Assembly (NCBI RefSeq): GCF_041260155.1
Contig: NC_091946.1
Location: 18,615,353 to 18,679,352 of the forward strand
Origin: Ptychodera flava
Taxonomy: Eukaryota > Hemichordata > Enteropneusta > Ptychoderidae
Direction: 5' to 3'
DNA length: 64,000 nucleotides
This document shows, one piece after another, positions 13,715 through 61,885 of this stretch. The notes under the pieces are model-generated. The model did not search any database. It saw nothing but the letters and a program-made list of their open reading frames with translations, and was not told where the DNA came from. Positions within the stretch are counted from its first letter, which is position 1; each line of letters begins with the position of its first letter. Both the position numbers and the translations under genes were made by a program.

Positions 13715-14331
13715 AAAATGAACATTTGTGTACAAGAAATTGATTTCTGAATTTCATCTAAAAAGTTGGTTCACTATCCATGGTGTTTATGATGAAATTA
13801 TGAATAGTTTTTTTCCAATACAAAAATAGGTAAATCTTTGCATTTGTGTACTCTTGATTATTGATATTAATTTTCTTGATTAGACTAGAGTGGTTACAAG
13901 TCTATGGTTGTGCAAGAAATATGATTTCGGAATTTCACCAAAATGTCCATACACTATGCATTGGGGTCTGTGATGAAACTATGAATAATTTATTTTCAGT
14001 ACAAAATTAGATAAATCTGTGCATTTATGTATGCTTGATTATTCACATTATTGTTCTTGATAAGACTAGAGTGGTTGCAAGTCCATGGTTGTGCAAGAAA
14101 TTTGATTTTGAAATTTCACCAAAATGTCGATTCACTATGCATTGGGGTCTATGATGAAACAATGAGTAATTTTTTTTCAGTACAAAATTAGATAAATCTG
14201 TGCATTTATGTATGCTTGATTATTCACATTATTGTTCTTGATTAGACTAGAGTGGTTACAAGTCTATGGTTGTGTAAGAAATTTGATTTTGGAATTTCAC
14301 CAAATGTCAATTCACTATGCATGGCGGTTTA
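13715..14331 (+). repeat. 181-bp tandem repeat, about 3.4 copies
   Basis: The TAGACTAGAGTGGTT landmark recurs at 13881, 14062 and 14243, exactly 181 bp apart each time. Flanking text (GTGCAAGAAATTTGATT, TCACTATGCATTGGGGT) repeats with it. The first copy is the most diverged, and the last is cut at about 14331. Confidence 0.9.
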
Positions 14332-28262: not shown

Positions 28263-28293
<31 letters not shown>

Positions 28294-28318
28294 GTATGTA
28301 TGTATGTATGTATGTATG

Positions 28319-28350
<32 letters not shown>

Positions 28351-29044
28351 CTATGTATGTATGTATGTATGTATGTATGTATGTATGTATGTATGTATGT
28401 ATGTATGTATGTATGTATGTATGTATGTATGTATGTATGTATGTATGTATGTATGTATGTATGTATGTATGTATGTATGTATGTATGTATGTATGTATGT
28501 ATGTATGTATGTATGTATGTATGTATGTATGTATGTATGTATGTATGTATGTATGTATGTATGTATGTATGTATGTATGTATGTATGTATGTATGTATGT
28601 ATGTATGTATGTATGTATGTATGTATGTATGTATGTATGTATACGTTCTTCGATTATTTATTTGTTACTTTACATTCATTGCTGCAAATACCATCCTTAA
28701 ATGAACAGAACGTTTGCCACGTTAGGTGTGTTGAAACAGAACATGTCGACATGATTTGTGGATGAGAAAAAAGAGCTGTATTTTACAAACGGGTTAAAAA
28801 AAAACTGGAAAATTCATTAAAAGTTACATCGATTAGAATTTGAAGCGTCGGCTTGTGACGGTATATAAAGACTCATAAATGATTTTAAGAAATAATTTAA
28901 AATGACGTCATCTATTCCTCCTCTCTGTTGCTAGGTGTCGTTGGAAACTGGAAGGAAGCCTTCACCATCAGCCAAAACGAGACTTTCAACAAACATTACA
29001 AAGAAGGGATGAAGGGTTATGAACACCTTATGTACGACTGTTGA
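20778..29044 (+). CDS. cytosolic sulfotransferase SULT-A (six exons)
   Basis: Predicted PAPS-dependent cytosolic sulfotransferase, 309 aa; acceptor unknown. Exons: 20778-20946, 24448-24707, 25562-25685, 26127-26221, 27491-27662, 28935-29044. All introns are GT-AG with phases 1,0,1,0,1. The frame stays open across every junction to TGA at 29042-29044. The start has a good context (AAGATGG). Motifs in order: PAPS 5'-phosphosulfate loop TYPKAGTNW (52-60), [10 protein letters not shown] (121-130) with catalytic His127, 3'-phosphate site [10 protein letters not shown] (148-157, Arg149 and Ser157), and RKGVVGNWKEAFT (272-284). Length and order match the SULT1-type family. Pro125 stands where vertebrate SULTs have Lys (KTHLP). 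It is transcribed away from the other three genes and is the most diverged: exon 2 is 260 nt rather than 266, and exon 1 is 9 or more nt longer. Candidate poly(A) signal AATAAA at 29445-29450. Confidence 0.93.
21415..21510. repeat. decayed G-run element fragment
   Basis: GGTGAGGGTGGGG, GGCAGGGGGGAATG, GAGGGTCACATTT and TTTTAGAAAACTGCC resemble the subterminal arrays of the 13204-14549 element. No inverted end is visible. It lies in SULT-A intron 1. Confidence 0.35.
23771..24322. mobile_element. TTAA MITE, family 1 copy C, interrupted
   Basis: This carries the family 1 landmarks GAATGCGCC-TTTGGGGCAGATATTTGGACTCT, GGCGGACATTTTGAATTTC and, at the end, CGAGGTACATACTAC. It is split after GGACTCT by a different TTAA element (23813-23995). 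It lies in SULT-A intron 1, ending about 125 bp before exon 2. Confidence 0.65.
23813..23995. mobile_element. 183-bp TTAA MITE, family 3, nested in family 1
   Basis: TTAA (23809-23812), then AGGTATACAGTCACC; the right end GGTGACAGTATACCT, then TTAA (23996-23999). The terminal inverted repeats are 15 bp with one mismatch. The split halves of the host MITE rejoin when it is removed. A second copy of this left end (AAGGTATACAGTCACC) lies at about 36306-36321. Confidence 0.85.
25841..25897. repeat. (CCTA)n microsatellite in SULT-A intron 3
   Basis: About 57 bp of pure CCTA. Confidence 0.95.
26383..27036. repeat. pentanucleotide array (CATAT)n then (CATCA)n in SULT-A intron 4
   Basis: About 350 bp of CATAT-type pentamers with variants (CATGT, CTTAT) pass through a mixed zone at 26736-26810 into about 225 bp of CATCA pentamers. 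The long open frames rich in Ser-Tyr-His or Ser-His-His are artefacts of the period. Confidence 0.95.
27989..28642. repeat. ~650-bp (TATG)n microsatellite in SULT-A intron 5
   Basis: An almost pure tetranucleotide array has single interruptions near 28101, 28292 and 28348. The Met-Tyr-Val-Cys open frames are artefacts. It ends about 290 bp before the last exon of SULT-A. Confidence 0.97.
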
Positions 29045-32734: not shown

Positions 32735-35700
32735 TTAGAAGGAATATTTATGGCCCGGATAATCCTTCATCTCTTCATTGTAAATCTTGTCGAACGCCTC
32801 GCTCTGTGCCACAGTGAACGTGTTCTTCCAGCCACCGGATACACCTGAGGGGAAAACAATAGAAAAATGTGCCCCGGAGTTTATTAAGGGTAATCTCATA
32901 AATGAGATATAATGTATTGCTTTCTCGCGTATCGTAGGACAAAACTGAGAATTCTAGAAAACCTATTCCCATCGTATGCGTCGTCATTATCATAAAACTT
33001 TGCTCACAAGGTAGATTTGGATAAAGCAGTCAACGACCTCACGAAATTTCACCTTTCATATACACTACAGTCAATGTTTTCGCCAATACTAAAAACACCG
33101 TGAAAAAGTAACGTGGTGTTCCTTCATTTAACGTGCACGGTGATTCTCATGCTCCCCTGAGGATTTCGGTAACACTTCGAACAGAAATTTAGCATTATAC
33201 ATTGCGAGGAAACGACGTTTTTTGTCAACTTTACCACTCAGTCTGAGTGATAGTGTTAAAGATCTAGAGGTGAAAACCAAACTTCTATTTTCCTACAATG
33301 TGTCAAATCGATATATACCACGTTCACTAAGTTTATTGTCTTTGTTGAGAATGTAAAAAATCAGTCTTGATATGTTAGCGGGAAGGAGACAAATCGCATA
33401 AAATGGGTACAAATCCACAAGCAACAAGTCATGTAACTATTTCCAAACTTGTTTTATCATGTCATTTAGCACTTTATACTGCTATGTCATGTCTCACTTT
33501 AACCCTTTGAGCGCCAATGTCAATTTTGCCGCCTTTACAAATGTAAGCCGGGTAATTTTTTCAGACTTTTTTTCCAAAATTTTGATCAAAAACGGTAGCA
33601 AATGAAAATTGATGCCCAGTTGTTCCAAAGTGGCAAAAAGATCACAAAAATTATGAAAATGTTTAAAGTTTTGCACTAAGATTTGTGCGGGAACATTTCC
33701 AGCACTCAAAAGGTTAATTGACTCGGATAACATGTCAGAAATAGTTTATTTTCTATTTATTTGTTTATTTGTTTACTTGTTTGTTTCAATGATTTTGGTT
33801 ACAAGGACAAAGGCACAATGGCAAGGTCAACGTTAATCACCTTTCCTCTGCCATACTCCCTCTGGTCTGAGTATGAATTCACGACCTTTGATTGTCTCAT
33901 TGGCCTTCTTCATGTACAGGAAGTGCGTCACGCGGCATACTTCATCGAGTTGTGCGTCTGTCAATGACTTGCCCATGAACTCGGCGATTTTCTTGACAGA
34001 GCCTTTGTGGTCCTGAAACGAACAACGGGCAAAGACGACACTGAACTTCACTGTGTTTCGTTGTCTTTTTGCATAAATTAGCTCTCCTTTGTAAATGTAC
34101 TTTCTTTTCTATAAATTTCTCTCATTCGGATACGTTTTACTCATTTTCTTCTGGGCATCGAATCGTTTGAAAAGTGACTGGATACTAAATTGAGATGCAT
34201 TAATAACTTATAACACATTCTCTATAACCACCGTGACTGCAAGTTCAACGATAGAAAAATACGATGCCTAAGTTTGCAGATACATCGACAATCATCAGTC
34301 AAACACCTCTATCACATTATTAACGTGGTTTTCAGACTTCCGATCTTACCTTCTTCATGTCTTCGTATGTTATGTACAGCACCCAGGGCTCGTTTATGTA
34401 TTTGCCCCACGCTTTCATGAACTTGCAGTAGTCACCGTATATGGCTGTAGAGAGATTGCAGAAACGGGTAAACTCCTTTTTTTGTACACTTATACAGATT
34501 AATGTAATGAGTTATAGGTGTTTTTGATCTTGACTCATAAGAAAGTTGTGGTTTTGACAGCACACTGAGATCAATTTACTGAAATTTTACCACACTCTCC
34601 TTCATTATACACTATCCAGATGTTGTCTTTGATACCTGATGCCGAATTTGTGCTACCAAAACTTCTGAAATGATTGTTTTTTCATGTCCCCCTTTCCTAG
34701 CCCCAGCTTTCATAGTTTAGTACCAGAGACTGGTTTCATTGCAGGACCTGCGTATTTCAAACAGCGGCAGTTGCCACAGTAGCATGCTATCTCCAAAGAG
34801 TTACATATGCCTTCTTGTGGAAAATGGACAAGTTGGGGACAAAAGCAGAGCATTGTACAAGTGAAGTGGGTCTACAAAAGATTGACTACACTTACTGTGA
34901 CCCTTCAGGTAGGCTTCAAACATTTCGTCCCAGGTGCAGGGATCCAAGAAACGCACGGACTGATGCCAGTTGAACAGGGATATGAGACAATCCTTCGGGT
35001 TCCTGTCTACCATGACAGTCTACGGAGGGATGAGAATGAAAAACGTAAAGAATACCCATCAAAAGTAGGAGTGGCACATCAGACAAACAGTGCATCACAG
35101 TTCCTCTATCCACAGAGGGACTGTGAGTGTATACATCGAAAAAAAATCGCCGAGGCAATTCGTTCATTTTTAATTTGACCGCAAAGTTATATACCAAGCT
35201 CACCTTTGGCTTCTTTGTGAACAGCTGTGTTGGAGATATGTCTGGCAGCAGATGGGTCGGTATCCTTCTCGGGGTACCCTCAGGAACTGATCCTAAAACG
35301 GCTTTGCAAATCGGCGGGACGTCTTTGATACCTTCCTCGACCATTTCAGGGTGGGTGGATGGACCTAGTTCTATCAAGGGGACTTTTTCCATGAGAGACC
35401 TCTCCTTGAGTATGTCGATGTTGTCAATGTTTTGGATCGCGTCGATGATTTCCATCGTCCAGTTCGTTCCTGTGAAAACGAAAAAAGTAAGAGACACGGA
35501 TTTCCTTTAGGACGAAAAAATAACCACTGGAAATAGAAAAGGCGGAATGAAACATTGCCTACGAAATGTCGTAGCTTGTCCAAATATGATTCCACTTTAT
35601 TCGCTTTTTCTTGAACTTGATGTATATCCTATAATTTTTTTCAAATGTGAGTAATATAGTATATAAACCCTTCATTTTGACCTAAACTCTGATTTTCAGT

Positions 35701-38700
35701 ATGTGAGAAGTGGCCGTGTCAATGGTTGGGCAGACACCTACATGTAGGACATAGCAACAATAACCGGTGATCGCTAGGGGTCAGAGGTCAACAATGTGTA
35801 CACGAGAGTTTAGTTCATATACTTCGCAAGCTTTCGGTGTCGCGATAATATGCCAGATGAAGACCAAATATTCACGGTATATATGTTTCCGGTTTGATGT
35901 TTGCGAGGAGAATTCAATAGACGAAGTTTGATCAAGGTGTTTCCTCCTACCATACACCACTTCAAAAGCATAAATTGCTCGCGAGTGTATTTGGCTTGCC
36001 TTCTAGGTCGACTTCCCTCACGTATTGGCGATTGCAGACGATGTCCGGGCGTAGGTCATAGTTTACCTCTCGGGCAGAGGGGAGCTTATACGAGACCATT
36101 CCCGGGGTTTTACACTTGAACAAGAGAGTGGTTTTGTTCATGAAATGAGATACATGAACACTTGTGGTCGACACCCAATCACCGACTCACGTTCATGGTT
36201 TAAATCGTCTTCAATTGAATTTTTTGGCCTCTAACGTAACGCAATTCTGGATCATTCTTCACCAATCATGACACAGTGACAATTCATCGTCCTAGCCCTA
36301 TCACAAGGTATACAGTCACCTTTATGTATTAGCCTCTTTTACCACCTATTCAGGTTTGCATCTTATAAATTTAAACATTGACATGCACATTCTCTCGTTA
36401 TATCATCATAATACTCTCAAAACAAATAAATTTACACAAACAAGTTTGAATGCTAATCTTTACTATCTTTCAATCATGAAAATAAAGGCGTAATGCAACG
36501 ACACCCCCCCCCTTCATTCACTGAAAATTCCACCAAAATTCAATAGTTTCGTTGGTTGAATAAATAAGACTCGATATAAGTCAATGTCTTTACCCAGAAA
36601 CTGTCTCAATCTAACGTCTGAGAAGGAACGTCTGAGACCTTTGACACTCTTGACACACGGGTCAGGTAGCTGTAATTCTCGCTACGTTAAAGTGTATGTC
36701 TCGCATAAATTCAAAGTTAATTTTGCTTAAAATGAGCCATACTATATGATTTTGCCACCCCTACTTTATCAAATAAATGCATCACCCCAATGAAACGACG
36801 CGGTTAAATATTATTAAAATGCAATATGTTGTGCGACTTTGAAGTTAGCTGCCATTCGGGTCGTTTCGGAATTCGCGGACATTGCCACCGGAAATGACGT
36901 AACTAATAGAATGTACGAGTGATAGTGTTCACCTCCGCCATAGCGAATGCTTACCGCTGTGGCTTCAACATGGTGAGAAGTTACGCCTTTGGTGGCTGAA
37001 GTAACTGCAGCCATTGTCAGTTTATTGCATTGTAGGATGATGTATTAGCCGCATTTGACAAAATTACAAGAAAGGGTCGGAAAAGAGGCATTCAGACAAG
37101 CGTTTTCTGCGGTGCACATTTTCGAGTGCCGTGAATTAGAATACAAACGGTCCGGAAGCCAGATGTACGGTAAGATAGACTTTAATTCCTGGAGTTACTA
37201 CATCGATTATGTAATCGCAATGCCGTACCAGTACGACCATTGTCACCAGAAAGCTTCGCGTGTATCATCATCAACTGTGGACAAGAGCGAGAACAGCAGC
37301 AAGACTGCGACAGGTTGCCCAAAACATGTCAAGGATGCGGGGGCCGCGGAGAAGTATGGCCGTGTTTACATCCCCCAAGACTGATCGCTGATTCAGATGC
37401 TTTACGAAAGTGATTGTAAATAAATAAATGAATACAGGTACTAGATCTCATGCATGTGTGACTCTATAATTAGTAACGTTAGGAGATATCTAATTTTATA
37501 TTCCTAAAAAGTTTACCTAGTGATTGACTGACTCTTTGCGAGACTGAACGATAGGTTGTGTATAATATACAGCACGGCGCTGCCAGTAACAGTGACACAA
37601 CGTGTAGCATGCAAAGAAGTTTATACTGTTGACGAAGCAGTCGCGTTGTCGTCATCTGTTCCCTTCTGCTCGACTAAGTCTCCCCTAAAATATTAGCTTC
37701 TTTGAGAATTTCGCAGTCATGAAACAATGAACACTGTGCTTTATATCGCTGACACTTAATCAAGAAAAACTGCATAAGCGTAGCTGATCACCCCGTCACA
37801 GAAATGGCCGGCTGAGCCGCCCGGCCTCGGGTGCCAGTGTGCCCGATATTTACATCATGTCAATTTTAATTTATCTCTTCCCGAGAATTTGGCTAGACAT
37901 GTCTTTACGGTCACATAGTGCCCATGTTCATGTGAGGTTTTATAACGCCAAACTGAAGATTTTGCGGCGAGAATACTACCTTTGGTGTTTATGCTAACAT
38001 GACACTCAGCCTGTTCCACTTCCACTTGATAGGAAAGATGTGTGTTATGAACGGTGGACAATTTTCAACTTGATCTCTACTACATTTATCTACAAACGTC
38101 ATGGTGTAATTCAATTTTTTATATACAGATTTTGAACGAGGCAATTTGTGTTGAGAAGTAATAATAAGGTGGGATGGCAACTCCAGACTTTATTTTGTTA
38201 GCTTGCGGTTGTGTGTACGGTAGTGCACTGGTGTGTTTGACTGTGGTCACGGTGGGCTTGTCACTGACGCGACGGTCAACAAGAGTTCCGCTCTTGTTCT
38301 CGTTTAGGTTAAGGTTCCGACTGTTAAAATTTGCAGGCCTGTAAATTCTGAACAGCTTTGTCATATCTTCTGTGACGATGACATTCTCAGTTGCACTACT
38401 TTCACTCATGAAATTATCACTATCTCCATAGTCAATGCACGAAGTCACCATCACCCATTCTATTAGTGACGTCACAGCTACTTGCGCCAAAACGGGGCGA
38501 GCTCGGCAATTTCCGGAAAATGTCGCCATGATGGAAATCGAAAAGTGCAACTTTTCCCGTGTTTTCGTCGAAATAACATAATACAACCGTCTAAAAACCG
38601 CTCAAATAAGCTTCAGTTTGTGTGTAAATGTTTGTTTTATTAATACCAATTTCATTGACAACCAGAACTATAGTATATGCCCCAAGTCAAACGAAAAAGT

Positions 38701-40203
38701 CTCAAAATGTGGCAGGACTCACACTTTAAATACTTTTTGTCTCGTGCTTGGGGGCAAACTTCATGTATTGAAATGCATTGTTGGTAAAATGTGGACTTCT
38801 CACCACAGCAATAGTTTGAGATAGTGATCTCGTAAATACTTTGGACACAAACGTAATCACTGTCTAGGCAAGAAGTTCTGATTTTTCATGAAACTAGCGA
38901 AATTCATTCATCTTTTCGTCTTTTTAGGCATTTCTGGAGTTAAATTCCTGTACAACCTAAAACTTTACTTTTGCTTCTGTAGTATTATGTGTTTTACCTG
39001 AAAAAAGCAGCCATACTGAAGATATTGTTGACCGCATGAGACTTTTATACTCACTTTGGTGGCTAATCGTAATTGAGGTACCGAGAATTCAGGGGCCAGA
39101 GAGCAAGCTCCACCCCAAACCAATTTGTCTGCCTCTCAAATTCGTTTGCAGCGCTCTCATTGGCTCATTTTTTTTCTCGAGCAATCGCTTCTGCGAGCAA
39201 CAGGTTCACAGCACCCCTTGTAAAAAGTGAGACAACTGCATACAATACTAGAGTAAAAGAGGTCACCTACGAGCAAAAGGACCCCTGGGAAAGTCATCAA
39301 TCACGTGATTTATAGCGTGAACTTGCTGAGATCAGCGACGTTACGTCAGAATCATTTTAACGACACTAATGTAAACAGAACAGTTATGAAAAAATATATT
39401 CACGTCATTTATATGGAAAGGTAGAGAATGCCGTACAAGATACACTTGATCGTGTACGTCTTTAATCATCTTTGAACAAAGGGCTGTTAAAACATTTTGG
39501 CAATTGGTCAAAGTTCTTGAGGTTCCAGTTTTTCCTTTCTTTTGAGGCAGGCTTTCAGAGGAGGCGAGTTTCTTAAAACAATAATCATTTGCATATCGGA
39601 CATATGTCATGATTAAGAGCACGAAGTGTGCGTAAACTTGCACTTCAAAACTTCAAATCTGATCACGGTGACTGTTGGTGGTATCACAACATTTTTGAAA
39701 AAAAGCGTGCCCCGCAGCATTAGAATGGACCAAATGAAAAGGCAAAGAGTGGTTTATGTGTACGAACTTATGGAAAGTCTCAGTTGATATAGTGGTCAGC
39801 GTGTCGTCGTCGCCGCCCAGGGTGAAAAGTGTACAATGCTAAATGCACCATGCAAAACCATTTCCTGCCAGCTCGATAGTGGCCGTTGGTTATTTTATCC
39901 GAAACTTGTGAAAAAACGTAGTTTATGTAATCCATAATTTGTCTGTAAAGTGACAACATACGGAACACAAAGTCAGGGCCGCTAAGACTTGTACGGGTAT
40001 CCGGGCAGATTTTAAACACCCCAGGTCGAAAGCCGTGCATTAAACTTACCGGCTTTTGCGAAAGTCACCAAAAACACATCGTCGTCTCGCACTTCAAAGT
40101 TCTTCACGTTGGTCTCGATGTTGTTCTTCTCCATGATGACCGGCAAGACATATCCAGGGCGGAAGAAGTAAGTCTTCTTCAATGAAACTTGTTCCTCCGT
40201 CAT
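32735..40203 (-). CDS. cytosolic sulfotransferase SULT-B (six exons)
   Basis: Predicted cytosolic PAPS-dependent sulfotransferase, 306 aa. Exons in transcript order: 40050-40203, 35204-35469, 34896-35019, 34350-34444, 33841-34012, 32735-32844. All have GT-AG junctions and phases 1,0,1,0,1; stop TAA at 32735-32737. Motifs: PAPS loop TFAKAGTNW (47-55), [10 protein letters not shown] with His124, [10 protein letters not shown] (145-154), and [13 protein letters not shown] from 269. The PAPS loop is unusual: Tyr-Pro of the near-invariant TYPK is Phe-Ala, though the Lys (50) is kept. Pro122 replaces the usual Lys before Thr-His. Intron 1 is 4.6 kb, much longer than in SULT-C or D. A TATA box lies 83 bp upstream. 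The frame is intact throughout, so it is probably expressed, but PAPS binding may be altered. Confidence 0.92.
33503..33713. mobile_element. TTAA MITE, family 2 copy 2 (SULT-B intron 5)
   Basis: TTAA (33499-33502), CCCTTTGAGCGCCAATGTC at the left end, GCACTCAAAAGG at the right end, then TTAA (33714-33717); 211 bp. The terminal inverted repeats are CCCTTTGAGYGC. Confidence 0.8.
35470..40049. other. SULT-B intron 1 (4.6 kb)
   Basis: It contains a family 3 MITE left end near 36306 and several open frames I do not recognise: - 35962-36174, + 37055-37384 and - 38119-38586 (155 codons). The last starts in a CpG-containing stretch with a TGACGTCA site at about 38467-38474. None shows a known domain. 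A nested gene or old insertion cannot be excluded. Confidence 0.4.
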
Positions 40204-45674: not shown

Positions 45675-46737
45675 TTAAAATTCATATTTCAAGTCTTCAT
45701 AACCCTTCATTTTTTCGTCATAATATTTGTCGAAAGCCTCGTTCTGGAACACGGTGAATGTGTTCTTCCAACCGCCGGACACACCTAGAGAAATGAATAT
45801 ACGAACAAACAAAAGGTAATATGAATATCGAGAGTTGCTTGAACAATTAGTTCTGAATCTCAGAGGGGTTATGAATTGATATGTATAAATAAAAAAACCT
45901 AACAGAAATATCCGTTTTGGCATCTATTTATTCACTCTATTCCAAGAACCTTGACACTGACGATTCCCTAGGTAATCAGTAATTAAACGCTAACTGTGCT
46001 CACTAATATCCATCCCTCCTAAACCTGATACTATTCCTCCATGTGTTTCTAAAATATTATATTGCCGTTAAAATATTTTTTTGAACGATGTGATATTGAA
46101 CATCAGTAAAATTGTTTTGGTTGTCGTGGCGTAAGTTAAAAGAATTTTCGAATTTTTAATTACCTTTCCTCTGCCATACTCCCTCCGGTCTGAGTATGAA
46201 GTCACGACCTTTGATGGTCTCGTTGGCCTTCTTCATGTATTGGAAGCCAGTGACCCGAACTACTTCATCGACTTGTGCGTCAGTCAGAGACTTGCCCATA
46301 AACTCGGCAATTCTCTTGACGGAGCCTTTGTGATCCTGACGAAGAAGGAAGGGAGAACAAAACGATCTAAATGCATATGTAACCTTTATCACATGCCTCA
46401 TGTATCGAACGTCATACGGCCCTTAGAATTTAATGGGTGAAACTGGCCTGGAGCTATTTCGAACTTGTGACGGGGAAATTCGAGAATTACCGATGACCGA
46501 ATTACTCAATGTTGCATGAAAGACAGTCATTGCACAACGTCACCGGTCATGACTGACATAGGAAATCCGGTGTTTGTAAAATTATATGGAAGACAGCCCA
46601 TAAACTGCATAACCTTGATTAAGATGTATTCATGGAAATCGATGATTGTAAGTTGCAAAACGGACCAAAATGTTTGGTACAACATTTAAAAATTGTGGGA
46701 GAGGCATTGATTAAAAAACTGATAGTCCTAGCGTAAT

Positions 46738-46797
<60 letters not shown>

Positions 46798-49120
46798 ATA
46801 TAATATTATCGCGTAATGGCAATTTTATTCTCTCTCTCTAAAAGCATTTGTTGTCGTGATACTGACATTAGCTGTGAACTTTAAATCGTTTTGATGATTT
46901 TGTTGACGAAAACAGGGACATGTGTCCTTAGAGTGTTAAAGCGAAATTTATTATTTACCAATATTTTATTATTGACCATTTATTTGTACAAATGCAGTTT
47001 TACTGTTGATAAATGATGCCACGATCTGATTAGAATTCAGGAGTAATCAGACGCCACACATAGAGTTTATGTGGCCAAGTTAAATACTAGGCGTTCTGAG
47101 ATGGAAATCTGTGTGCAACAACGAACTGCATTTTACAGAACAAAATAATGGACAATATATCCAGAGTTAAGTTAAAGGGTCCTTATAAATATGAACAGTA
47201 TTAGATATAGTAACCACATTTAGTAATTTTTCATATGTTTAAAGACTCTTTAAAGTTTACTTTGAACACGTGGAAAGACTAAAAGCTGCGAACATTAAAG
47301 ATCAAATGATGACGATTCATCACCCATGGTTAATATTCTTAAAATTGCGAATCGCGCACTGTACAATCTATAAACCAAATTAAATAATATATACAGCCCT
47401 AGACATTACAGGCGAGCTACGCTGTTCAAAAGCTTGCATCTGCGCAGGTGTTAAACGTCATGTTCAGGAGAAGTTGAAATTGTTATCAAGCGCATGTTAC
47501 CAGCCTACCTTCTTTATGTCTTCATAGCGTATCCAAAATATCCACGGTTCATTCTTGTATTTGGCCCATGCTTTAGTGAACTCACAATAGTCGCCATATA
47601 CTGCTGCAATGGAAATGGCCAAAATATTGACATATATTATAACATGAGGGCGTCCTCTTTGAGACTATTTCAAACGTACAGTTTCGGAGTGTAAGAGTGA
47701 ACTTGAACGTCTGACAAAACGAAGTCTCCTTGGTGTTTATGTACCAATCAAATTTATACGGTCTAATTCAACTGCGAACATTTCCAGCCTCTGTCTCGGA
47801 AAGTTCTGCCACATATCAATAAGGCTCATTCGTTATGTTATGATCCGAACGAACTAGCTTCGTGATAGTTTGTCTTCAAATTTCAATTAGCATATGTGTA
47901 TTTCAAATGTCATCAGCAGTCCTGCTAACTTACAGAGCCCTTCCATGTAAGTGTTGAACATTTCTTCCTACCCTAACCGCTAATATATGTTACATTTGTC
48001 ATTGAAAATTCTGCTACATGTAAAGACGTCTCATGATTTGATCCACAGTTTGTCTGCAGAACTTGATCAAACGGTGTGTGTCAAAGAATAAGCGGTTTAG
48101 CTTACTTACTGAGTCCTTTCATGTACGCGTCGAACATTTCTTCCCAGGTTAAGGGGTCCAGAAAACGCACGGATAGATGCCAGTTATAGAGAGAAATGAG
48201 GCAGTCCTTCGGGTTTCTGTCCACGACGATAGTCTACAGGAAGGATGGAGATACAACGCAAATAGGTAGGTAAACACAAAGATATCGACATGCGGTAGAG
48301 CAATCAAACCGACGAACTGAGAAAAAGTAGTTTGAGTGAAGAGGGAGAAAAGAATTTACGATTCCATTATACTACTAAGCGGGGATGTATTTCGGTATGG
48401 TCTTGGGAGGAGAACAAGAACTGTGCTTTACAACATAAAACAATTATACCACAATCAACACGATTGGAACTAATTTGGGATAATTGGATCTTTACATTTT
48501 TCAAAAATATTTTCTCAAAAGTGTTAGGTGCCCTATAGCTGAATGTTGCGATATTACAAATCACCCATTAAAACAAGTGTGTAACTTGAAAAGAAAAGCT
48601 GATGATGTTACATTTGCAGATTATATCGGGATCAATTCACCATCCAGTGATCCAAAATTAGTTCCAATCGTGTTAATCATAATAATAGTAGCAAAATGGA
48701 GCTTTACATGGAACTGTCAGGAGAGGAGTCGCAAGTCTCTGAAAATGTTATGCGACAGGATCACAAACCTTTTCCTTAATGTCTGCTCAGAGTATAGAAC
48801 CATCCCTGTGTCCACCATGACATTGCGAGTCATTGCTCAACTTACTTTTGGTTTCTTTTTGAACAGCTCGGCTGGAGCTTGCTCCGGAAACAGATGTGTC
48901 GGTATTCCTCTCGGGGAGCCCTTGGGGATTGTCTCTAACATGACTTTTGCCAGTGATGGTACATCTGTGATACCTTCCTCAACCAGGTCAGGGTGAGTAG
49001 ATGGACCAAGCTCTAATAAGGGAACTTTTTCATTAAGTGCTTTCTCTTTAAGTATGTCGATGTTATCAATATTTTGGATTGCGCTGATAATTTCCATCGT
49101 CCAGTTAGTTCCTGTGAAAT

Positions 49121-49218
<98 letters not shown>

Positions 49219-50464
49219 TATAAATAATTTTGATAGGTCTTCAAATCGGAGATTTCCAGGGGACGTATACGAATTGTTAACAACAGACGGTACTGAATGC
49301 AATTAACTTATGGACTTTGAACATTTGCTGACGTAGTAGAGGTAATATACGATAGAGGGCGCTCTAATTCGGTAAGTCGATATCCATCATGATGAAAACG
49401 GCTATGAACAACTGTGCTTCAAATGCCAGTTGCGCTGATTTTGATGGGAGATTCGGGCGAGTTTGACGGTCATCTGAACCACGTTGAGTCCATTTCCAAT
49501 AACTAACATTCTGAAAACCACGCCAAAACTAATTTCCGGAGACGCACCAAACACTTCATGCAACAGGTAGCTGTGAATATAGATGTGATGTGATATGATT
49601 TGGCAGTCAATAGTGAAGATACGTCTACGAATGATATAGCAGCCTGAAAAAATGCATTTATACTCCGCCATGACGGCAGACCATTGGTCCTGCTATGTAG
49701 CACAGAGTCACCTTCTCGTTGTACAACGAGAGGCATGGGCGGGACTACAAGATAAAAGGTTGCATGGTGTCTTAAAAAATGACAAATGCAGAACGCCGCA
49801 CCCTGATATAATCGGCATTAAACATTGGATCATGGCGGAAAAACAAACTTGAAATGGTTCTCATGAAACTGCTGCGCTTGGAGTCATTGCGCCGTGCAAC
49901 AATATACCAACGAAACGTGGCAAAATGTATTATTTGACATCCAAACACAAACTAACCTCCGAGCAAACTTGAGATGTCACCATAAAATTGTGGATCAACT
50001 CGATAATATTCAGACATTACGGTACCAAGAAACAGTAAAATTAATTCTTGTTTTGAACTAGGATGTTTAGATATTAATAATGACTGGGAGACCGCGTCAC
50101 TGGTTATGCTGCTTCAAGCAACATCGCATTAGGTTAATGCAAATTGTTTGCTATCATTTGTCATCTTTTGTATAATTCGTCTCCAACTGCCGACCAAACA
50201 CTAAATCCAAGTTTAATTCTGTTGACACTTACACATGCAAACACGGTCTGCCATCATCAGAGTGACTGGCAAACGATCTGTCTCATGATTGTGGAAAGAC
50301 TTACCGGCCTTTGGATAGGTCACCAGAAACACGTCCTCGTCTCGGACCTCAAAGTTCTTCACGGTCGTCTCGATGTTGTTCTTTTCCATGATGGCTGGCA
50401 AGACATATCCAGGGCTGAACAAGTAAGTCTTCTTGAAGAGCTTTGGTTCCTGCTTGGCTGTCAT
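45675..50464 (-). CDS. cytosolic sulfotransferase SULT-C (six exons)
   Basis: Predicted cytosolic PAPS-dependent sulfotransferase, 308 aa. Exons in transcript order: 50305-50464, 48846-49111, 48110-48233, 47509-47603, 46164-46335, 45675-45784; phases 1,0,1,0,1 and TAA at 45675-45677. I chose the Met at 50464 (MTAKQEPK) over one 21 codons upstream because it matches the SULT-D and SULT-B starts. Motifs: TYPKAGTNW (49-57), PRGIPTHLFP with His126, [10 protein letters not shown] (147-156), [13 protein letters not shown] from 271. Pro124 replaces the usual Lys. Intron 3 carries a broken exon 3 remnant (47934-47968). Exon 3 and the adjacent intron are nearly identical to SULT-D, unlike the rest of the gene. 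An (AT)n tract lies just upstream of the exon 2 acceptor. Confidence 0.93.
46743..46793. repeat. (AT)n microsatellite in SULT-C intron 4
   Basis: About 50 bp of pure AT. Confidence 0.95.
47934..47968 (-). pseudogene. 35-nt remnant of the original SULT-C exon 3
   Basis: On the minus strand this reads EEMFNTYMEGL and is followed by its own GTAAG donor (47929-47933). It aligns to the last 35 nt of real exon 3 (EEMFDAYMKGL). At 47968 the similarity stops abruptly and intron sequence shared with SULT-D begins. The preceding intron (47780-47930) is also a diverged duplicate of the intron next to exon 3. It is too short and lacks an acceptor, so it is not an exon. Confidence 0.75.
49125..49222. repeat. 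(AT)n beside SULT-C exon 2 acceptor
   Basis: About 98 bp of AT, ending 13 nt before the exon 2 boundary at 49111. The branch-point region is thus AT repeat. SULT-D has an (AT)n tract in the same place. Confidence 0.95.
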
Positions 50465-51422: not shown

Positions 51423-53261
51423 CCAACGCTGAAATTAAAGGTAACTTTTGTTTATATACGCCGTCCAATGAAACAAATGAGATATCATTATATGATATCA
51501 TAATGTTTTCATATGCAGTATCCAAAGTGTCGGAGGATTGCCTCGGACACACATGTGGGCTTGCATCGCCAATTACTTGTGTTATATACACAGGACACCT
51601 TTTTATGGCATTGTCATGAAGCATCTCAAGATCATAGTTTTTTTTTCCAAAATCAGCAGTTTACAACAATAATTCTCAAAGCACATTAAAGAATAAGGTA
51701 GCCTTTTGAGGATCAGTTCTTAAGAGATAGAGGGAAGTGAAAATATTTTACGTTTGAAAACAACTATTTATGTGACTTAAGGCCATACAACCAGGCGATT
51801 TCTGTTCACTAAGATATGAATCCAGGCAGGTCTCATGTAAAATTCTTGAGTGATGCCTAGGAAATTTGCATGGGCAGAGAGTATCATGGTTATTAAGTTA
51901 TTAAAACAATATGGTCAATTTTAAAAATACTTGAGCGTGTGATGGTCTGTTGTTTGTTTAAACATGTTGAACATGATTCGTTCTGACTCATACAAACGAA
52001 TCACGTGATGACGTTCGTCGACAACTGTGTTAATACGCTTAACAAAGACACTATGTTGACATTCTGTAAAACGGTTTTCTGACGGCCTTTAACTCTGTCA
52101 ACTATATCAAAGACAAATAGAAACAGTTTCTTCTATTTGTCTGTGACTATATATAGAAAGAGGGATCGACATAAATGCACTAAACGGTCGTAGGGCCCCA
52201 TACGACAAATTCAAATGCTGTATCCAAGCTACGTTGGTGATATTGATGAGAGTTAAAACATGTTTGTCATAATGTACATCGTAAAATTTAAATGTTGCAG
52301 CAATGTTGACATGATGCATCTAGATATCATGCATGAAATACATGTATTTGTCGATAAGAAAGTCGCACAGGCGCATTTCCGACGATCTCCTTTTTATGGC
52401 CATTGCGTTGCAGCTTATTCTTGAATACGATGACGTCGCCATTGGAGTCAGGTATGCATGGACGTGTATCCTAAACTGTTACCTTTTTCCGCTTGAATTG
52501 TTGCATGATGACGTAATAAAAATGAAAACAAAAATCGGCTTGTGAAATAAACTGACTTTTGCATTGTGAGAGAGATCTTTCCTGTGTACAATTCTCGTAT
52601 ATATGTTGCTTCTGAGGAACGTCGGTTGTGTTGCAGAATTACCGTGTAAAACCGAAGCCTCGTATGTATAGTGACAATTTTCACTTGTCATGTAGTGTTG
52701 TGGTATGTACAATTATTGTTAATCTTCACATTTAATTAAAAAATTTTCCTTTTACTGCGGTATCTTCAATGAACATGTTCAGAAGACACTGTTTGAACAT
52801 TAACACGAGAGGGGTTTCTTGACAGATGTCTTCTGCTAACCAAAACGATAAATACATTTAAAACGAGATTTCCGTTTATTGTAGCACATTGTCGCTGTGG
52901 CATCATAAACAAAGAACAAATTATAATTGTCCAAATACAATGAATGCCATGTTTGGTATGTGCTATTATGATACAATACTCAGTCGAGAGACCGGTGTTT
53001 TGACCATTCTAATAAATGAAAGCACTAGTCTTTTATCTTTTATCAACGCACTTTTTATTCACAAAGTATTACAAACTGTGTCCGATCCATTGAGCATAGT
53101 TATCCCTTCCACGTAGCGATTCAAGTGTAGCATTACTAAAAGTTGATCTCAATTAGCTTGTTGAAGTCACACAGGTTTAGTCTATAAGTAAGAGGGATTT
53201 GTGTGCTATTCCTACCCATTGAATCACTTCTTCCATCGAAGAGAAATGCCTGCTTTGTTAA
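51423..53261. other. intergenic between SULT-C and SULT-D
   Basis: From about 52550 it is homologous to DNA downstream of SULT-B (43850 onward), consistent with segmental duplication. No gene recognised. Confidence 0.5.
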
Positions 53262-53476
53262 CCTTTTGAGCGCCAAAGTCAATTTTTGTCAGCCTTATAA
53301 AATATACCTAAGCCAATTTTTGTCTGATTTTTGCCAAAATTTTGATAAAAAACTGTGGCCAATGAAATGTTGTGTTCATTTTGTCCAAAATTATCAGAAA
53401 AATTACAGAAAAGTTCATAAAAATTGGTAAAATGTTGCTCTGAAATTGTGGTGGGAAAAATATAGCACTCAAAGGG
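53262..53476. mobile_element. TTAA MITE, family 2 copy 3, with paralogous empty site
   Basis: TTAA (53258-53261), CCTTTTGAGCGCC at the left end, GCACTCAAAGGG at the right end, then TTAA (53477-53480). The homologous DNA upstream of the SULT-C stop (about 45430-45480) runs from GAGAAATAAATG to AAATCTAACCTTTC without it. Confidence 0.85.
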
Positions 53477-53693
53477 TTAATGATGAAAGACACTAACCTT
53501 TCCAAGTATCACTTCGCACATATTCTACTGAATAGACATTATATTTCGTTGATCCATGAATGAAATTTGTTTTCGACCTTCAAATACTGAAAACTTAATC
53601 TTCCATAAGACAAGCGCTTAGAAAATATTTGGAGCGAGCATTTTGTACCAAACGATGCACTTTTTGGGAAATAGTGCTAGTGAAACGTCGACA

Positions 53694-56600
53694 TTAAAAA
53701 TCATATTTCAAGTCTTCGTAACCGTTCATTTTCTCATTGTAATCTTTATCAAAAATCTCGCTCTGGGCCACACTGAATGTGTTTTTCCAACCACCAGAAA
53801 CGCCTACAGAAATGAAAAGACGAACAAATTACGAATAAGTCAGGCGCCACCAAGCCATTCCTGTATCTCAGTAGGGTAATAGGTGATGTATGCTTATGAA
53901 AACTGGAGGTCGTGCTAAAATACTTGACACAAAAATCTTTGATACACACTTGAAGGTTTTCCACCGAGCGCCTCGTTATTTACTGTGTTCTAAAGGGCTC
54001 AACAGTTACGACTGCCTAGGTTACTAGTAATTGATGCGTGGTTGTGCCCACATACATCCACTCCTGCTAAAATCTGATAGTACTCTCCATCAATGCAATT
54101 CGAAAATATTATTGTTGTGTTATTGAAAATTTCTTTATTTATCAAGTTTCTTTGCAGTGGGAGACGCATTTAATTTCACTTGAGTTGATCAAGTTTGTCG
54201 CTACGAAAGGGAGTTTGTTGGCACTAATTACCTTTCCTCTGCCATGTGCCCCCTGGCCTGAGAACGAGTTCACGACCTTTGATTGTCTCACTGGCCTTCT
54301 TCATGTACTGAAAGTCAGTGACCCGAACCACTTCATCGAGTTGTGAGTCTGTCAGAGACTTGCCCATGAAATCAGCAATTCTCTTGACAGAACCTTTGTG
54401 ATCCTAAGAGAAAGGCAGTGAGAAGAAAACGACTTAAACAAGTTTATTTCGTCTGATCTGTTTGCTGTGTAACCTTTATACGCACCCGTTCACTCAACGG
54501 CCATCCATTGGTTAACGTTCAAGAGGTAATTTGATTGCTGTGACTTTGTATATTTATTTTCATTGTATTTGTTCAAAGAAAGAGTACTTCTTCCTTCTGT
54601 GTGTTGAAATAAACTTGTATAATAAACTTCGAAACATAATGTGTACAAAATGTAATGCTAATAGGGTTGAAAATGAATTCTAGCGGGGACTAGCTTTTGC
54701 GTGTAAAGAATAAGCTTATTATCAGACACTACACACAAATGTACGGGTACATACTCAGGTGATAATTATATGAACATATTTGCGACTCGGTGTAAAATAT
54801 AAAAATTACAAAATATATTTTGTGTAGGGCAATTACTGGAAACATGCAACGTTACAACTGCCATGATCCACGAAGACATAGCATGCTGGACACGTTTTGA
54901 GACGTTTTAAGCACATCCTCAATTAATGTCAAGTGATATTATATAAGTATACAGATCGGACGCAAGCGATTCGTCATTCATGGCTAATATTCATGGACGG
55001 CGCATTGGTATTGTACCGTCTGTGAACCAAATTAGATAATGTGCACACGGTGCAACACATTTTAAGGCAGGCTGGTGCTGTTCACAAAATTGCCGAATGG
55101 ACAAGCGTTAAACTTCATTTGCACTGGAAGTTGCGATCATGCATTGTTATATCGAATACTTGTATTACTAGCCTCACCTTCTTGATGTCTTCATAGCGTA
55201 TCCAAAACATCCAAGGTTCGTTCTTGTACTCCGCCCATGATTTAATGAACTCACAATAGTCGCCAAATATTGCTGCAACGGAATGAATCAAAATTGAAAT
55301 ATTCACAGACAGTAAACTGTGAGGGCGTCCTAAGTGGGATCACTTCTGTCCATGCATACTTCCACAGACAGTATCGGTGCGCATGTGTACTAACATTTAC
55401 CCAATATGTATACTACCTCGACCATTGAATTTGCGTTTCCTGACAAGTCGAAGCTTTCAAATGATTTACCTTTTTGCACGAACCCATGCTATGCCATTTC
55501 TCGCTCTACATCCAAGCGTTGGCAAATGTTACTCACAGACTACCCTAACCGCTAATATATGTTACATTTGTCATTGAAAATTCTGCTACATGTAAAGACG
55601 CCTCCTGATTTGATCCACAGTTTGTCTGCAGAACTTGATCAAACGGTGTGTGTCAAAGAATAAGCGGTTTAGCTTACTTACTGAGTCCTTTCATGTACGC
55701 GTCGAACATTTCTTCCCAGGTTAAGGGGTCCAGAAAGCCCACGGTCAGATGCCAGTTATAGAGAGAAGTGAGGCAGTCCTTTGGGTTTCTGTCCACCACG
55801 ATCGTCTACAGAATGGAATAGCATACAGAAACGACGCAGGTAAACACACAGATATCGAGATGATCGCGTGCGGTAGACGACGCAAAAGCAAAGAACTGCG
55901 GAAAAGCCAAACAGGAAAGGCAAACTAAAAAAGTCTTGCAAAAATAAATGGAAAAGCACTGACGCATGTGTAAGTGTAAGGCAAAAGAAGGGCAAGAACA
56001 CTGAATTTCAGAAAGTAATCAAGTAATCTTTTATTGTATGAATTTTTGACAAAGTAAGCTGCCATTAAAATACGACTGATGGATAGATGGCACTCCTGTG
56101 AGTGAAAATTATGTCTGTCTGTCCTCGGTCTTTTCCGCCATGAAAGTATAAATAATACCGTGGGGTGAAACCTCGAGGCAGAATTGGAGATGCTCTCATG
56201 TTTCAGTATATGTTGCAGTTGTATCTAGATTGACAATTTTCTTTGATGTTATTGCAATGAGTTTGCAAGGTGCTTATAAAAATTGACATTGGTCCTCGCA
56301 TCCTTTAACAAATCATGAAGCAAACTTTCGACCGTAACTAATAGCTTCAAATATTCAATAGCTATATCCTTTATTATAAAAAAAAAACCAAATTTGTGTT
56401 TTCATTCGTCTCCCTAATATGCTGAAAGTTAAGGTGTTATTTCCCCTTTTGAACACAACACAACACTGTTTATATCCGGTGTTCTTGTTCACACATGAAT
56501 TCTGGTCCGGACCAATATTGATTAGTCAAGATAATATTGGATATTATATCATACCAGTATATTGATGGTGCAAATACAGCGATCTGATTGGTCGGGACGC

Positions 56601-57749
56601 GAAAAGAACCGTGGTATATTGGCGATATACCACGGCTGGCATACGCGCGAGCTCTCAGCCTGAGCAAATATCTATTTATGACGTTCCACGCCAGAATTTC
56701 AATATACTGTTATGATATAATAGCAATAAATCACACCCAACGACGGTATACCACTAGATTTTGACCAGCTCACTTCATATATGCCCTCGCTATTGCTCTT
56801 GCATATATGTCGTGAACTGGTCAAAATATCGTGGTATACCATCGCTGGGTGTGCTTTATTGCTTAATTAAGTACACTTGTTTAGACCGTGGTATTGAGTT
56901 TAATGGTGCACGGTATTGGTATTTCGACACAGTTTCGAGAGTAGAACGAGTTTCGAGAGTAGAACGAGAATGTGATTTACAGACACAACAAAAATATTTG
57001 AATCATAATAACGACCAGGTGTCACCTAAACACGCTCCCGTGCTTCAGTATATGTTACAGACGTCGAAACTTTTCTTTGATATTCTTGTTATGAGTTTAC
57101 AACTTTATTAAAATTGTTATGATCAACATCTCGAGCAATATCCATCGTATAATGCTTCAATCCAAAATACAGAAATTAGTATCTACCTGAAATGATAATG
57201 CTAAATTTCTTTCATGGCCGTTAGATCATCGTATAACAACTTTATGAAGCAAATTTTAAAAAAGGACTTTCGTCAATGTTATATCTTAGTATCTTCAGTG
57301 TACATGACAAGTTTCATAAACTTTGGTCCAGTCGATCTGGACGTATATCCAGCATTAGAAACGTTCGTTAAATACTCAAATCAGAAATAACTGATGTAAT
57401 GTGGCTAATTGACTTGCATTAAAACATGTTTCATCAAATTTGGTTCAATCAATGTATCCCTAATTAGGAAAGTTCAATAAATATGCGAATGAGCAGTGTC
57501 ATTATCGTAAAACCTCTACATTAGCTTTAAATCTGCTTACGTTTTTTTATTAACATCTGCAACAAGATTCGTCTGATATGATGATGAATTTCTGAGAACG
57601 TCTGATTTCTGAACAAATACTAATACAAATCATTATTAATTACGCAAACCTTCCCCGGCAAAAAGTGATCAGTTCTTGCCATTCAAAGTCCAAAACAGAA
57701 CATATGTACCAAATTTGATTTAAATCTGGTTTCTCGAAATATAGCGCTC

Positions 57750-57787
<38 letters not shown>

Positions 57788-58265
57788 TGAAGTACGAAAA
57801 AAACTCACACATGATGAACATGTGAGCTTACAATGGAACCTTAAGGCATGTAAAGGGTGCTGTCAGGAAAGCTCCAATCATACAAACTGTCTCTTGACAA
57901 AGTGCTCAGCTTTTCAGTACGACCGCAAAACACGCAGTATCAATTTTTTATCGCAACTTTGTGAATCGCAGTTGAACTTACTTTCGGTTTCTTTTCAAAC
58001 AGCTGTACTGGAGCTATGTCAGGACGAAGGTGCGTGGCTATTCTTCTCGGTGAGCCCTTGGGCATTGTCTCTAGTATGACTTTTGCAAATGACGGTACTT
58101 GCGTGATACCATCTTCCACCAAATCGGGATGAGTAGATGGGCCGAGCTCTAACAGGGGAACTTTTTCCATGAGAGATCTTTCCTTGAGTATATCGATGTT
58201 GTCAATGTTTTGGATTGCATCGATGATTTCCGCTGTCCAATTTGTACCTGAGGATTTATTGACAC

Positions 58266-58359
<94 letters not shown>

Positions 58360-60082
58360 ATTATTATAAAGTTGGCCATTCATCAAAATTCCGTACTCCA
58401 AAGACAGCTCAGAAGTATGTTGGTCACACTTATTATGTCCATTTATGCTGAAAGTTTGATGAGCGTCACATATTAGTAATTTGCTCATTCGCATATATAA
58501 TAAATATCTTTTTAACTCTATATCAATACTGAATGCATTGGTTTTGACCGAACCACTAGATTCATTAATTATGCTTAAGTTACCTAATTTGCATATTTAG
58601 CTACCTAATTTTCATATTTAATATATCAATACTAGATATAATTATTTTGAGTGGGCCTCTTGCATATATTGATGGCAATGATGTGCAGTTATGCCGCAAT
58701 TCTGAAGATCGTCACATTGTTTGCTCATGTTTGCATATTTACTGAACCTTTTTGATATTACTTCATACACCAAACTGAATATATTGATTTTGACCCTTCA
58801 CATTCCTCCGACCCCTAAGTAATGACGGCTCCCTAATTTAACATGTGCATATTTGGCCGTTATCATGAAAATGCCCAGGAGTGGTACACAGGGCCCGGTA
58901 GCTTCAAATAACGTTACATTCATTTTAATGGACGCGTCTGATAACCCGCAGCGATGGAAAAATAGTAATTACAATTTCGAGAATGCTTTAAACAGCTCTT
59001 GCAAGTAAGTTGTGAACAAATATATGATGTGATATTATGTGGTCGTCCGAAATGAATATTAATGAATGAATGAGTGAATGATTGATTGATTTATGGTCCC
59101 TTGGGGCGGGAAACCATTGGTCCTGCTATGTTGGGCATGCAGATAAACCTGCTGAGTCACCGTGCAAGTTCCAGTGGCTGGGTTAGGTACGACAGGGGCA
59201 CGCGAGACTGCAGACAGGGGTGCATGAAAGTACAGACAAGATTAATTAAACAGCACAAGACTACAAACAGAGGTGCACGAGACTACAGGGATACCTCGTG
59301 TCAATAGAGATGTCTTATATTTGACGGTCAAATTTGATAAACCCATGACAATGTTGGACATAGTGCAGAATGGATGCAGTTACTGTCATAAAAGTACATT
59401 GAACCGATGCCAATGAAAGATTGTACAATGAATGTAATAGGTGACATTAGACTCAAACTAAGCCAGCGACCAAACTTGGAGATGGTACTGTGAAACTGTA
59501 GAACTATCAAATAGTACTCAAAGAAGATGAAGGAACCAAACATGGTAAAACAAAGGGGGGGTCCTTATTCTTTTTTTGTGTTCAGTAGTAATTCATTATT
59601 GATTATGTCTATAGCCCGCGTCACCTGTGACACTGTTGCAACAAACAACGTTGGCTTAACCTGATGCGATGACTAAGCAAAACCTCTGAGCAATGATGTC
59701 GAGGTTTTATCATCGAAATGGAGATAGTGTCGAAGCTTGTCCGCTTCTGTTATTTAACGGTATTTTTTTATGTTTATTTCGTCACTACCTAATGACTGAA
59801 AGGAACCCAAGTTCAATTCTGCTGAAGCGTTCACAGGCAAACATACTCTGCCTGCAGCGGGTTACCCAAAAATATACGAAATGAATTCAAAGCTCTGCCC
59901 TGGTGATGCATGGGAGACTTACCGGCCTTTGGATAGGTCACCAAAAACACGTCCTCGTCTCTGACTTCAAAGTTCTTCACGACCGTCTCGATGTTGTTCT
60001 TTTCCATGATGACCGGCAGGACATATCCAGGGCGGAAGAAGTAAGTCTTCCTGAAGAGCTTTTGCTCCTGTGAGGATGCCAT
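53694..60082 (-). CDS. cytosolic sulfotransferase SULT-D (six exons)
   Basis: Predicted cytosolic PAPS-dependent sulfotransferase, 308 aa. Exons in transcript order: 59923-60082, 57982-58247, 55682-55805, 55178-55272, 54232-54403, 53694-53803; phases 1,0,1,0,1 and TAA at 53694-53696. The start is MASSQEQK. An upstream in-frame Met at 60154 overlaps the TATA box, so it should not be transcribed. Motifs: TYPKAGTNW (49-57), PRRIATHLRP with His126, [10 protein letters not shown] (147-156; exon 3 otherwise as in SULT-C), [13 protein letters not shown] from 271. Ala124 stands where vertebrate SULTs have Lys. Exon 5 differs from its paralogues near its end (LRPGGTW for LRPEGVW). It is a close duplicate of SULT-C, with homologous flanks on both sides. 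Confidence 0.92.
56609..56635. repeat. 11-bp-stem hairpin in SULT-D intron 2
   Basis: CCGTGGTATAT, loop TGGCG, ATATACCACGG. The GTGGTATACC core recurs in the foldback at 56722-56863. Confidence 0.9.
56722..56863. mobile_element. 142-bp foldback element in SULT-D intron 2
   Basis: The arms of about 63 bp begin AGCAATAAATCACACCCA and end TGGGTGTGCTTTATTGCT. They pair through GGTATACCAC, TTTTGACCAG and CATATATGC around a 16-nt loop. Mismatches are scattered and few. It is AT-flanked. Confidence 0.8.
57751..57787. repeat. (CAGA)n microsatellite
   Basis: Nine uninterrupted units in SULT-D intron 2. Confidence 0.95.
58272..58356. repeat. (AT)n beside SULT-D exon 2 acceptor
   Basis: About 85 bp of AT, ending 24 nt before the exon 2 boundary at 58247. 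Same location as in SULT-C. Confidence 0.95.
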
Positions 60083-60205: not shown

Positions 60206-61776
60206 GTCCCGATATGGGTGTCATAAACTTACGGTCGTACTTGCAAAACTTTTTCACGTGCTCCTGAATTTTGCACGTGCTCCCGAATTTGCTAATTTTT
60301 TCAACCGCTCCGATATTATGGCCATACTGATAGCTTGGACCAAGTGCAAGTTATGCAGATTATGATATTTACTCAGAAGATTATTTCATAATTCATATAG
60401 CCACAATCAGACTTTGAATTTTCCGCAAATGTTAATCATTTGCCACACGACGTTGATTCCATTCTACATGGAACTGATGGAGTGTACTAACCCTTTGGAT
60501 ACTGTATCAAGCTTCGGTCGAGTCCCCACTGTTTTCTGAGGTGAACAATCAAACTTCGAATATTAGGATTGAATGTATACAGTAAACTACATGACTCGAC
60601 AGTCAGTGTTTACATGTGCTTGTCCTTTAAAATACAAACATTGCTTTGTAAAGAGAGGAAGGTTTGTGACTGTCTTATTTACCAACTGTGTCTGCCTTAG
60701 AAAGGGACCCATATAGTCCCAAATTGGGTGCAGTGGGTACAATAGGTAGGGTATAACTGGACTGTTCAAACTTCATAGCACAAACTCTACAATATTCCGT
60801 AAAGTGGAGGGTGCTGACAGTTGACACTATTGAACAAATATTTACATCAAACTTTAATTTTTCTTCAAATGGTAGGTTAAGAATGCTTATTTGGGGTCAA
60901 AAGAAATGCTAGAATCAAAGCCAGGGGTCAAAAGTCAACACTTTATCATGCGGCGAAAACGGGGCTCGAAACGTAAAGCGCGGTACATATGTGTATAACT
61001 TTCCTATTGCAGTGCCCCCTGGGTATGTGCCCCCTGGGTATATGCCCCCTGGGTATGTTCGCCAGAGTCAAGATGCAGAATCCGCTTCGGTGATTAAGTA
61101 AAAGGCTTAGTCAGCAGCCCCCCCGCTGCAAATAAAGGGATTTTAAACAGTGTTCCTTGAAACGAATGAGAAAAATACCATACTCATTTCATATTCAGTC
61201 TGTGTTTTGCTTTCAGCATTCGAAGTACCCTAGGCCTAAGACTACCAAGAATACTTACGCAAGCATGAATTCTCCGAAAAGCTTACTCATCACGCCTTCG
61301 ATGACATATTTTAACTTACTGCAGAGCAGAAAGTCTCAGTTTGGTGTATAAACGTGCTAATGTTGTTTCAAAGAACAATAAAATACGAGATCTACCGGTC
61401 TGTTTCACTGTATACATATATAGTGGGTTTTCCTTACTCATATCAGCTGTTGTCGATGATTTCGAGACCGCGATACCGGTGACACGGTTTCAACAATCAA
61501 CACTGCGTGTAGCCATTGGTGCGATGACTAAGCAAAACGTGTAAGCGATGATGGCGAGATTTTATGTCTTGCGCGTTTTATGAGGACACTGTCAAAGTTT
61601 GTCTGTTATTGTTAGTTATTTATTTATGTTTATTTCGTCACTATCTACCAACTAAAAGGTAACCCAAGTTCAACTCTTTTGAAGCGTTAACAGGCAAGGC
61701 ATACTCTGCCGCCAGCTCGGTACCGTTTTACTGACTGAATTCAAAGCCATGTTCTTATGGTGCACGGGGGACTTAC
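60206..61776. other. SULT-D upstream DNA and duplicated intron fragment
   Basis: 60340-60480 is homologous to DNA upstream of SULT-C (50690-50840). A 16-bp repeat of TGCCCCCTGGGTATG type lies at 61012-61058. 61519-61776 is homologous to SULT-D intron 1 (59663-59922), with landmarks GCGATGACTAAGCAAAAC and TTTATGTTTATTTCGTCACTA. Confidence 0.55.
61012..61058 (+). repeat. 16-bp tandem repeat, three copies
   Basis: The GTGCCCCCTGGGTAT unit repeats three times with one base change. Confidence 0.85.
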
Positions 61777-61885
61777 CGACTTTTGGATAGGTCACCAATA
61801 ACACGCCCTCGTCTCGGACTTCAAAGTACTGTTCTTCACGATCGTCTAAATGTTGTTCTTTTCCATGATGACCGGCAGGACTACG
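61777..61885 (-). pseudogene. broken first exon of a fifth sulfotransferase (SULT-E remnant)
   Basis: On the minus strand it matches the 3' two thirds of SULT-D exon 1: [10 protein letters not shown], then FEVRDEGVLLVTYPKVG, then an intact GTAAG donor (61772-61776). It has an in-frame TAG where SULT-D has a Glu codon, and a 5-nt insertion after the codons for Val-Lys-Asn shifts the frame. The 5' part of the exon, with the start codon, is missing beyond about 61885. Its downstream intron fragment is kept, but no further exons lie in the expected place. This is a decayed partial duplicate. Confidence 0.88.

Follow-up and report, generated by a model that had tools for sequence, protein, structure and literature searches.

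How SULT-C, a sulfotransferase gene of the hemichordate Ptychodera flava, came to carry within its exon 3 and the adjoining intron a stretch almost identical to that of its neighbour SULT-D, and what became of its own exon in the process, is the question raised by this locus. The first-pass annotation had read it as a native exon severed and then replaced by one from the neighbour. We examined the sequence of both genes and arrived at a somewhat different history.

A cluster of sulfotransferase genes

The window (the whole stretch of DNA that was analysed, 64,000 nucleotides in length) contains a cluster of cytosolic-type sulfotransferase genes, with gene A on the plus strand and SULT-B, SULT-C and SULT-D on the minus strand. 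The models of the latter three have six exons apiece, GT/AG introns and an open reading frame.

20808 to 29038, plus strand: gene A of the cluster, with blastn and tblastn matches to the B, C and D exons between these positions
32735-40203, minus strand: SULT-B gene model, six exons, GT/AG introns, open frame of 306 aa
45675..50464, minus strand: SULT-C gene model, six exons, 308 aa, GT/AG at all introns
50305-50464, 48846-49111, 48110-48233, 47509-47603, 46164-46335 and 45675-45784, minus strand: the exons of the SULT-C gene model
53694..60082, minus strand: SULT-D gene model, the likely donor, six exons, 308 aa

The Pfam domain Sulfotransfer_1 (PF00685) covers residues 42-301 of both SULT-C (E 5.9e-58) and SULT-D (E 2.7e-57), that is, most of either protein, as is the case for cytosolic sulfotransferases, and the best PDB match of SULT-C is SULT1C2 (3bfx, E 5.8e-46). 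Despite the scar described below, SULT-C is still predicted to code for an intact sulfotransferase of 308 aa. When eight stop-to-stop frames of the window were scanned with Pfam, no match was found at E 0.1, and no Rfam family reached its gathering score over the window.

Several repeats were also recorded in the window. One of about 220 nt occurs in three copies (17874-18098, 33500-33719 and 53259-53481) that are 72-83% alike and is perhaps a short interspersed element; the open stretch located there (53188-53427) has no Pfam match. A GTAT array of 655 nt (27988-28642, 98% matches) lies between two exon-like matches of gene A, and two other tandem arrays are made of 181-nt units (13729-14322) and 140-nt units (2328-2776).

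Exon 3 of SULT-C is split, not replaced

The region of SULT-C around exon 3, together with the corresponding part of SULT-D, is organized as follows.

47766..47933, minus strand: native C intron 3 adjoining the old exon end, with a colinear counterpart at D 55540-55681 (97/134 aligned sites identical)
47934..47968, minus strand: 35-nt orphan end of native C exon 3, encoding EEMFNTYMEGL and followed by an intact GTAAGT donor
47968..47969, no strand assigned: non-homologous junction, where the native C exon meets the D intron at position 55541, with 1 nt (C) common to both sides
47969..48144, minus strand: inserted D-type copy of 176 nt, made of 141 nt of intron 3 (139/141 identical to D) and a 35-nt exon end with its donor (35/35 identical to D)
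48145..48164, minus strand: homologous junction zone, 0-20 nt converted in place (change-point support interval 48144-48164)
48165..48233, minus strand: native remainder of C exon 3, 8/69 sites differing from D
55541..55716, minus strand: donor segment in SULT-D, from the alignment to the C insert

The orphan exon end and its donor, both reported in the first-pass annotation, are real, and 6 of the orphan's 35 positions carry a different base in the D exon end. The accompanying claim that the exon had been severed and replaced stands in part: the exon was cut, but it was split rather than removed, since its 35-nt end with the flanking intron and at least 69 nt of its remainder persist on either side of the insert. 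The native intron (47749-47933) runs straight into the orphan with no break, and its local alignment with D 55523-55681 reached a score of 52, a value that none of 500 dinucleotide shuffles attained (mean 24, maximum 41). Because this native intron is present beside the orphan, we dropped wholesale replacement of the exon in favour of splitting with insertion. No loss of native SULT-C sequence was seen around exon 3; the gene holds the native and the D-type versions of the same intron/exon segment side by side, and the insert, which amounts to a net gain of 176 nt, duplicates sequence that C still has. The present exon 3 is a chimera in which, in coding order, the first 69 nt are native and the last 55 nt are D-type, 0-20 nt of the latter having overwritten native sequence in place.

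That the insert is D-type sequence follows from its 139/141 identity with D (55541-55681), compared with 97/134 between the native C intron and D and 98/133 between the native C intron and the insert. The native copy has diverged as would be expected between two old paralogs. Beyond C and D, the inserted segment has no match in the window at E 1e-5, and a mobile element was dropped as its source, given that within the window the 142 nt match C and D alone at that threshold and no Rfam family scores.

Identity as such carries no direction, and an exon-bearing C copy might instead have converted D. However, the colinearity of D with the native C intron (55523-55681 to 47749-47933) continues past 55540, where the copy starts, which marks C as the rearranged gene. 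Moreover, the native C intron is as far from the insert as it is from D, and transfer from C to D would need a duplication about as old as the C-D split; we therefore regard it as very improbable. In line with the original annotation, a D-to-C transfer in which native exon 3 was cut at an exact point is well supported.

The same final sequence is also predicted by two successive steps, in which C first underwent an internal tandem duplication of 176 nt and D then converted the exon-bearing copy up to the duplication junction, where homology to D ends and where conversion would naturally halt. In helq-1 worms, tandem duplications between about 100 bp and 10 kb in size have been observed, and the excerpted text of PMC8654963 ascribes them to polymerase-theta joining of abandoned HR intermediates. 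Against this, two events are required, and native-C-type duplicated sequence was looked for beside the junction and none was seen, which makes such a history improbable in our view.

We searched the whole window for further stranded fragments of exons from B, C and D (blastn E 0.01, tblastn E 0.1). Leaving aside the known exons and gene A, the search returned the present scar, a broken copy of exon 1 (61767-61881) and a 23-nt match at 866-887 (E 0.009). The exon 1 copy is frame-shifted, ends mid-exon and has no start codon. Alignment of 61465-61881 with D 59613-60022 covers this copy and part of its intron, with 77% identity overall and 88% in the exon part. It is a second, older-looking exon piece, the layout of which is similar to that of the SULT-C scar.

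Extent of the high-identity tract

The gap-free alignment of SULT-C with SULT-D over 266 nt contains 10 differences, at positions 48029, 48033, 48165, 48167, 48173, 48174, 48196, 48210, 48225 and 48231. Two of them fall in the 197 nt of 47968-48164 and eight in the 69 nt of 48165-48233 (Fisher p 0.0004), exactly as had been counted by hand in the first-pass annotation. Since exon 3 corresponds to 48110-48233, the tract consists of 142 nt of intron and 55 nt of exon. A two-rate split-point scan placed the change after 48164 (permutation p 0.005). The 8/69 differences found past that point are within the range of the other exons, all five of which together differ between C and D at 137/803 sites; over the same 69 nt, B differs from C at 14 sites and from D at 18.

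The sliding-window alignment and the GENECONV-style test that had been suggested for this gene pair were both carried out, and the divergence between C and D is not uniform. The test covered five of the six exons (2-6) of B, C and D, exon 1 being omitted because that of B has a different length. The longest run of variable sites at which C equals D, 14 sites, sits in the exon 3 tract (permutation p 0.00125), and so does the longest run of the entire CDS over which C and D are identical, 57 nt (p 0.007); both runs extend 2 nt into exon 4, and both p values concern the single pair C-D, uncorrected for the number of pairs. Away from the exons, C-D intron identity in the whole-gene MAFFT alignment is 40-72% in most of the printed 100-column windows (those with fewer than 40 aligned columns were left out), one exception being an AT-repeat at 49136 that is 94% identical. 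This alignment places D 55540-55681 once only, so that the homology of the native C intron is hidden there. The excess of paralog identity over a bounded tract by which interlocus gene conversion is recognized is found here.

The exon tests are moderate evidence for the tract, and the intron identity is the strong part of the evidence for transfer. The exon part alone is weak evidence, because C-D synonymous divergence differs among exons anyway, from 0.20 (exon 1) to 1.45 (exon 6), with a heterogeneity p of 0.0018. Synonymous divergence is also uneven in the comparisons with B (B-C p 0.019, B-D p 0.00013), where exons 1 and 5 have lower values than exons 2, 4 and 6. Earlier exon-by-exon conversion within the array may account for the unevenness, as may constraint.

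A near-identical tract of only 197 nt could also arise in assembly, had a D-derived read or an allelic contig bridged exon 3 of SULT-C, in which case the junction would be absent in the animal. That the tract differs from D at two sites weighs weakly against this, as these could be allelic. Yet the reading frame and splice sites of SULT-C are kept exactly, both ends coincide on the native exon to within 20 nt and the window is without any N, all of which make an assembly artefact unlikely.

A putative repair origin for the scar

The best explanation, to which we assign a probability of roughly 0.7 with template switching counted in, is a break in exon 3 of SULT-C followed by one-sided copying from D and end joining. 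The break, or a fork stall, would have fallen between what are now bases 47968 and 48145. The end on the exon side would then have paired with the matching exon of the neighbouring SULT-D and been extended over about 176-196 nt, with synthesis presumably running from the D exon end through the donor site and into 141 nt of D intron, after which the extended strand would have come off D and joined the other C end without homology. As copying begun by homology within an exon would bring along a complete exon end and its donor, the frame and splice sites would be rebuilt and the old end and donor stranded in the intron.

The two junctions bear on this scheme. The left one at 47968 (homologous to 48144) and the right switch at 48144-48164 agree within 20 nt, and a homologous and a non-homologous boundary meeting at one native point would be the product expected of a single break. 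Classical conversion, with both boundaries homologous and no net insertion, does not describe the tract, whose left junction joins exon to D intron. Gene conversion with non-canonical termination, which leaves one homologous and one low-homology junction, is the best fit, the switch zone being homologous and the other junction sharing 1 nt. With a single nucleotide shared at 47968/47969, no joining pathway is singled out.

Replication template switching of the FoSTeS/MMBIR type between C and D would involve the same donor, direction and product. Little homology was available for pairing: the exon contributes 89 nt (48145-48233), the last 69 of which hold 8 differences, and the longest perfect C-D run past 48164 is 21 nt. 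With such short homology beside the break, template switching fits equally, and the 1-nt overlap at the other junction is also in its favour. However, two junctions within 20 nt are not required by switching, whereas they are expected from one break, and switching is a possible but less probable route within the reading that we prefer.

For break repair with one-sided copying, the excerpted text of PMC5104497 reports, in mouse ES cells, homologous copying that terminates in end joining and shows microhomology or added nucleotides at the joint, and that of PMC3962482 mentions aborted SDSA with end-joining in the repair of gaps in Drosophila. Unless it is an assembly error, the scar would be a naturally occurring case of a familiar type of sloppy DNA repair, and an event of an ordinary kind.

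Consequences for protein and splicing

The rebuilt exon end encodes EEMFDAYMKGL, compared with EEMFNTYMEGL in the orphan. Assuming that the orphan is unaltered since the event, four residues were changed: N became D, T became A, E became K, and S in the split codon became T. The scar would illustrate how conversion can bring residue changes into an enzyme with the reading frame unharmed. The idea that the E-to-K change is a substrate-specificity switch was dropped: the specificity residue that it might have matched is residue 146 of human SULT1A3, and the changed residue is near 165 by hand count along the SULT1C2 alignment.

The old donor (CTCT/GTAAGT) and the new one (CTCA/GTAAGT) are equal at positions +1 to +6, the old one lying 176 nt further into the transcript. 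The new donor is presumably the one in use. Splicing at the second GTAAGT left in the intron would retain intron sequence and, as predicted from the frame (KGLSK-stop), lead to an early stop at intron bases 6-8.

It is tempting, if rather speculative, to extend this to tandem multi-exon paralogs in general, in which one-sided copying begun within an exon might heal itself whatever the length of intron copied. Since the copied exon end and donor would always be included, exon-splitting insertions would survive, stranding exon ends with live donors in introns. If this is true, such scars would form a countable natural record of germline homologous copying ended by end joining, and would also offer introns a way to grow and supply competing 5′ splice sites.

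Comparison with known systems

No recognizable description of this SULT-C locus was found among the titles and abstract openings listed by searches of the open-access literature. As in other clusters of cytosolic sulfotransferase genes, tandem six-exon genes with Sulfotransfer_1 are present here, and the scar in SULT-C is the sole unusual feature. With interlocus (ectopic) gene conversion between tandem paralogs, the scar shares a short high-identity tract between diverged neighbours and one boundary in a homologous exon; it differs in that the other boundary is non-homologous, native sequence is kept and there is a net insertion.

Non-canonical termination of homologous recombination and aborted SDSA (PMC5104497, PMC3962482) share with it a homologous start and a non-homologous join to the second break end. 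According to their excerpted texts, those systems concern induced breaks, either in reporters or in transposon gaps, and the tracts in PMC5104497 are long, whereas in SULT-C we infer a clean natural product of 176 nt, formed between diverged paralogs and inside an exon. Such a product, with both native flanks preserved, could be dated and sought genome-wide. The duplications of helq-1 Caenorhabditis elegans are likewise partial and attributed to end joining of an HR intermediate; in the excerpted text of PMC8654963 the repeats copy the same locus, whereas the template in SULT-C would have been a diverged neighbour.
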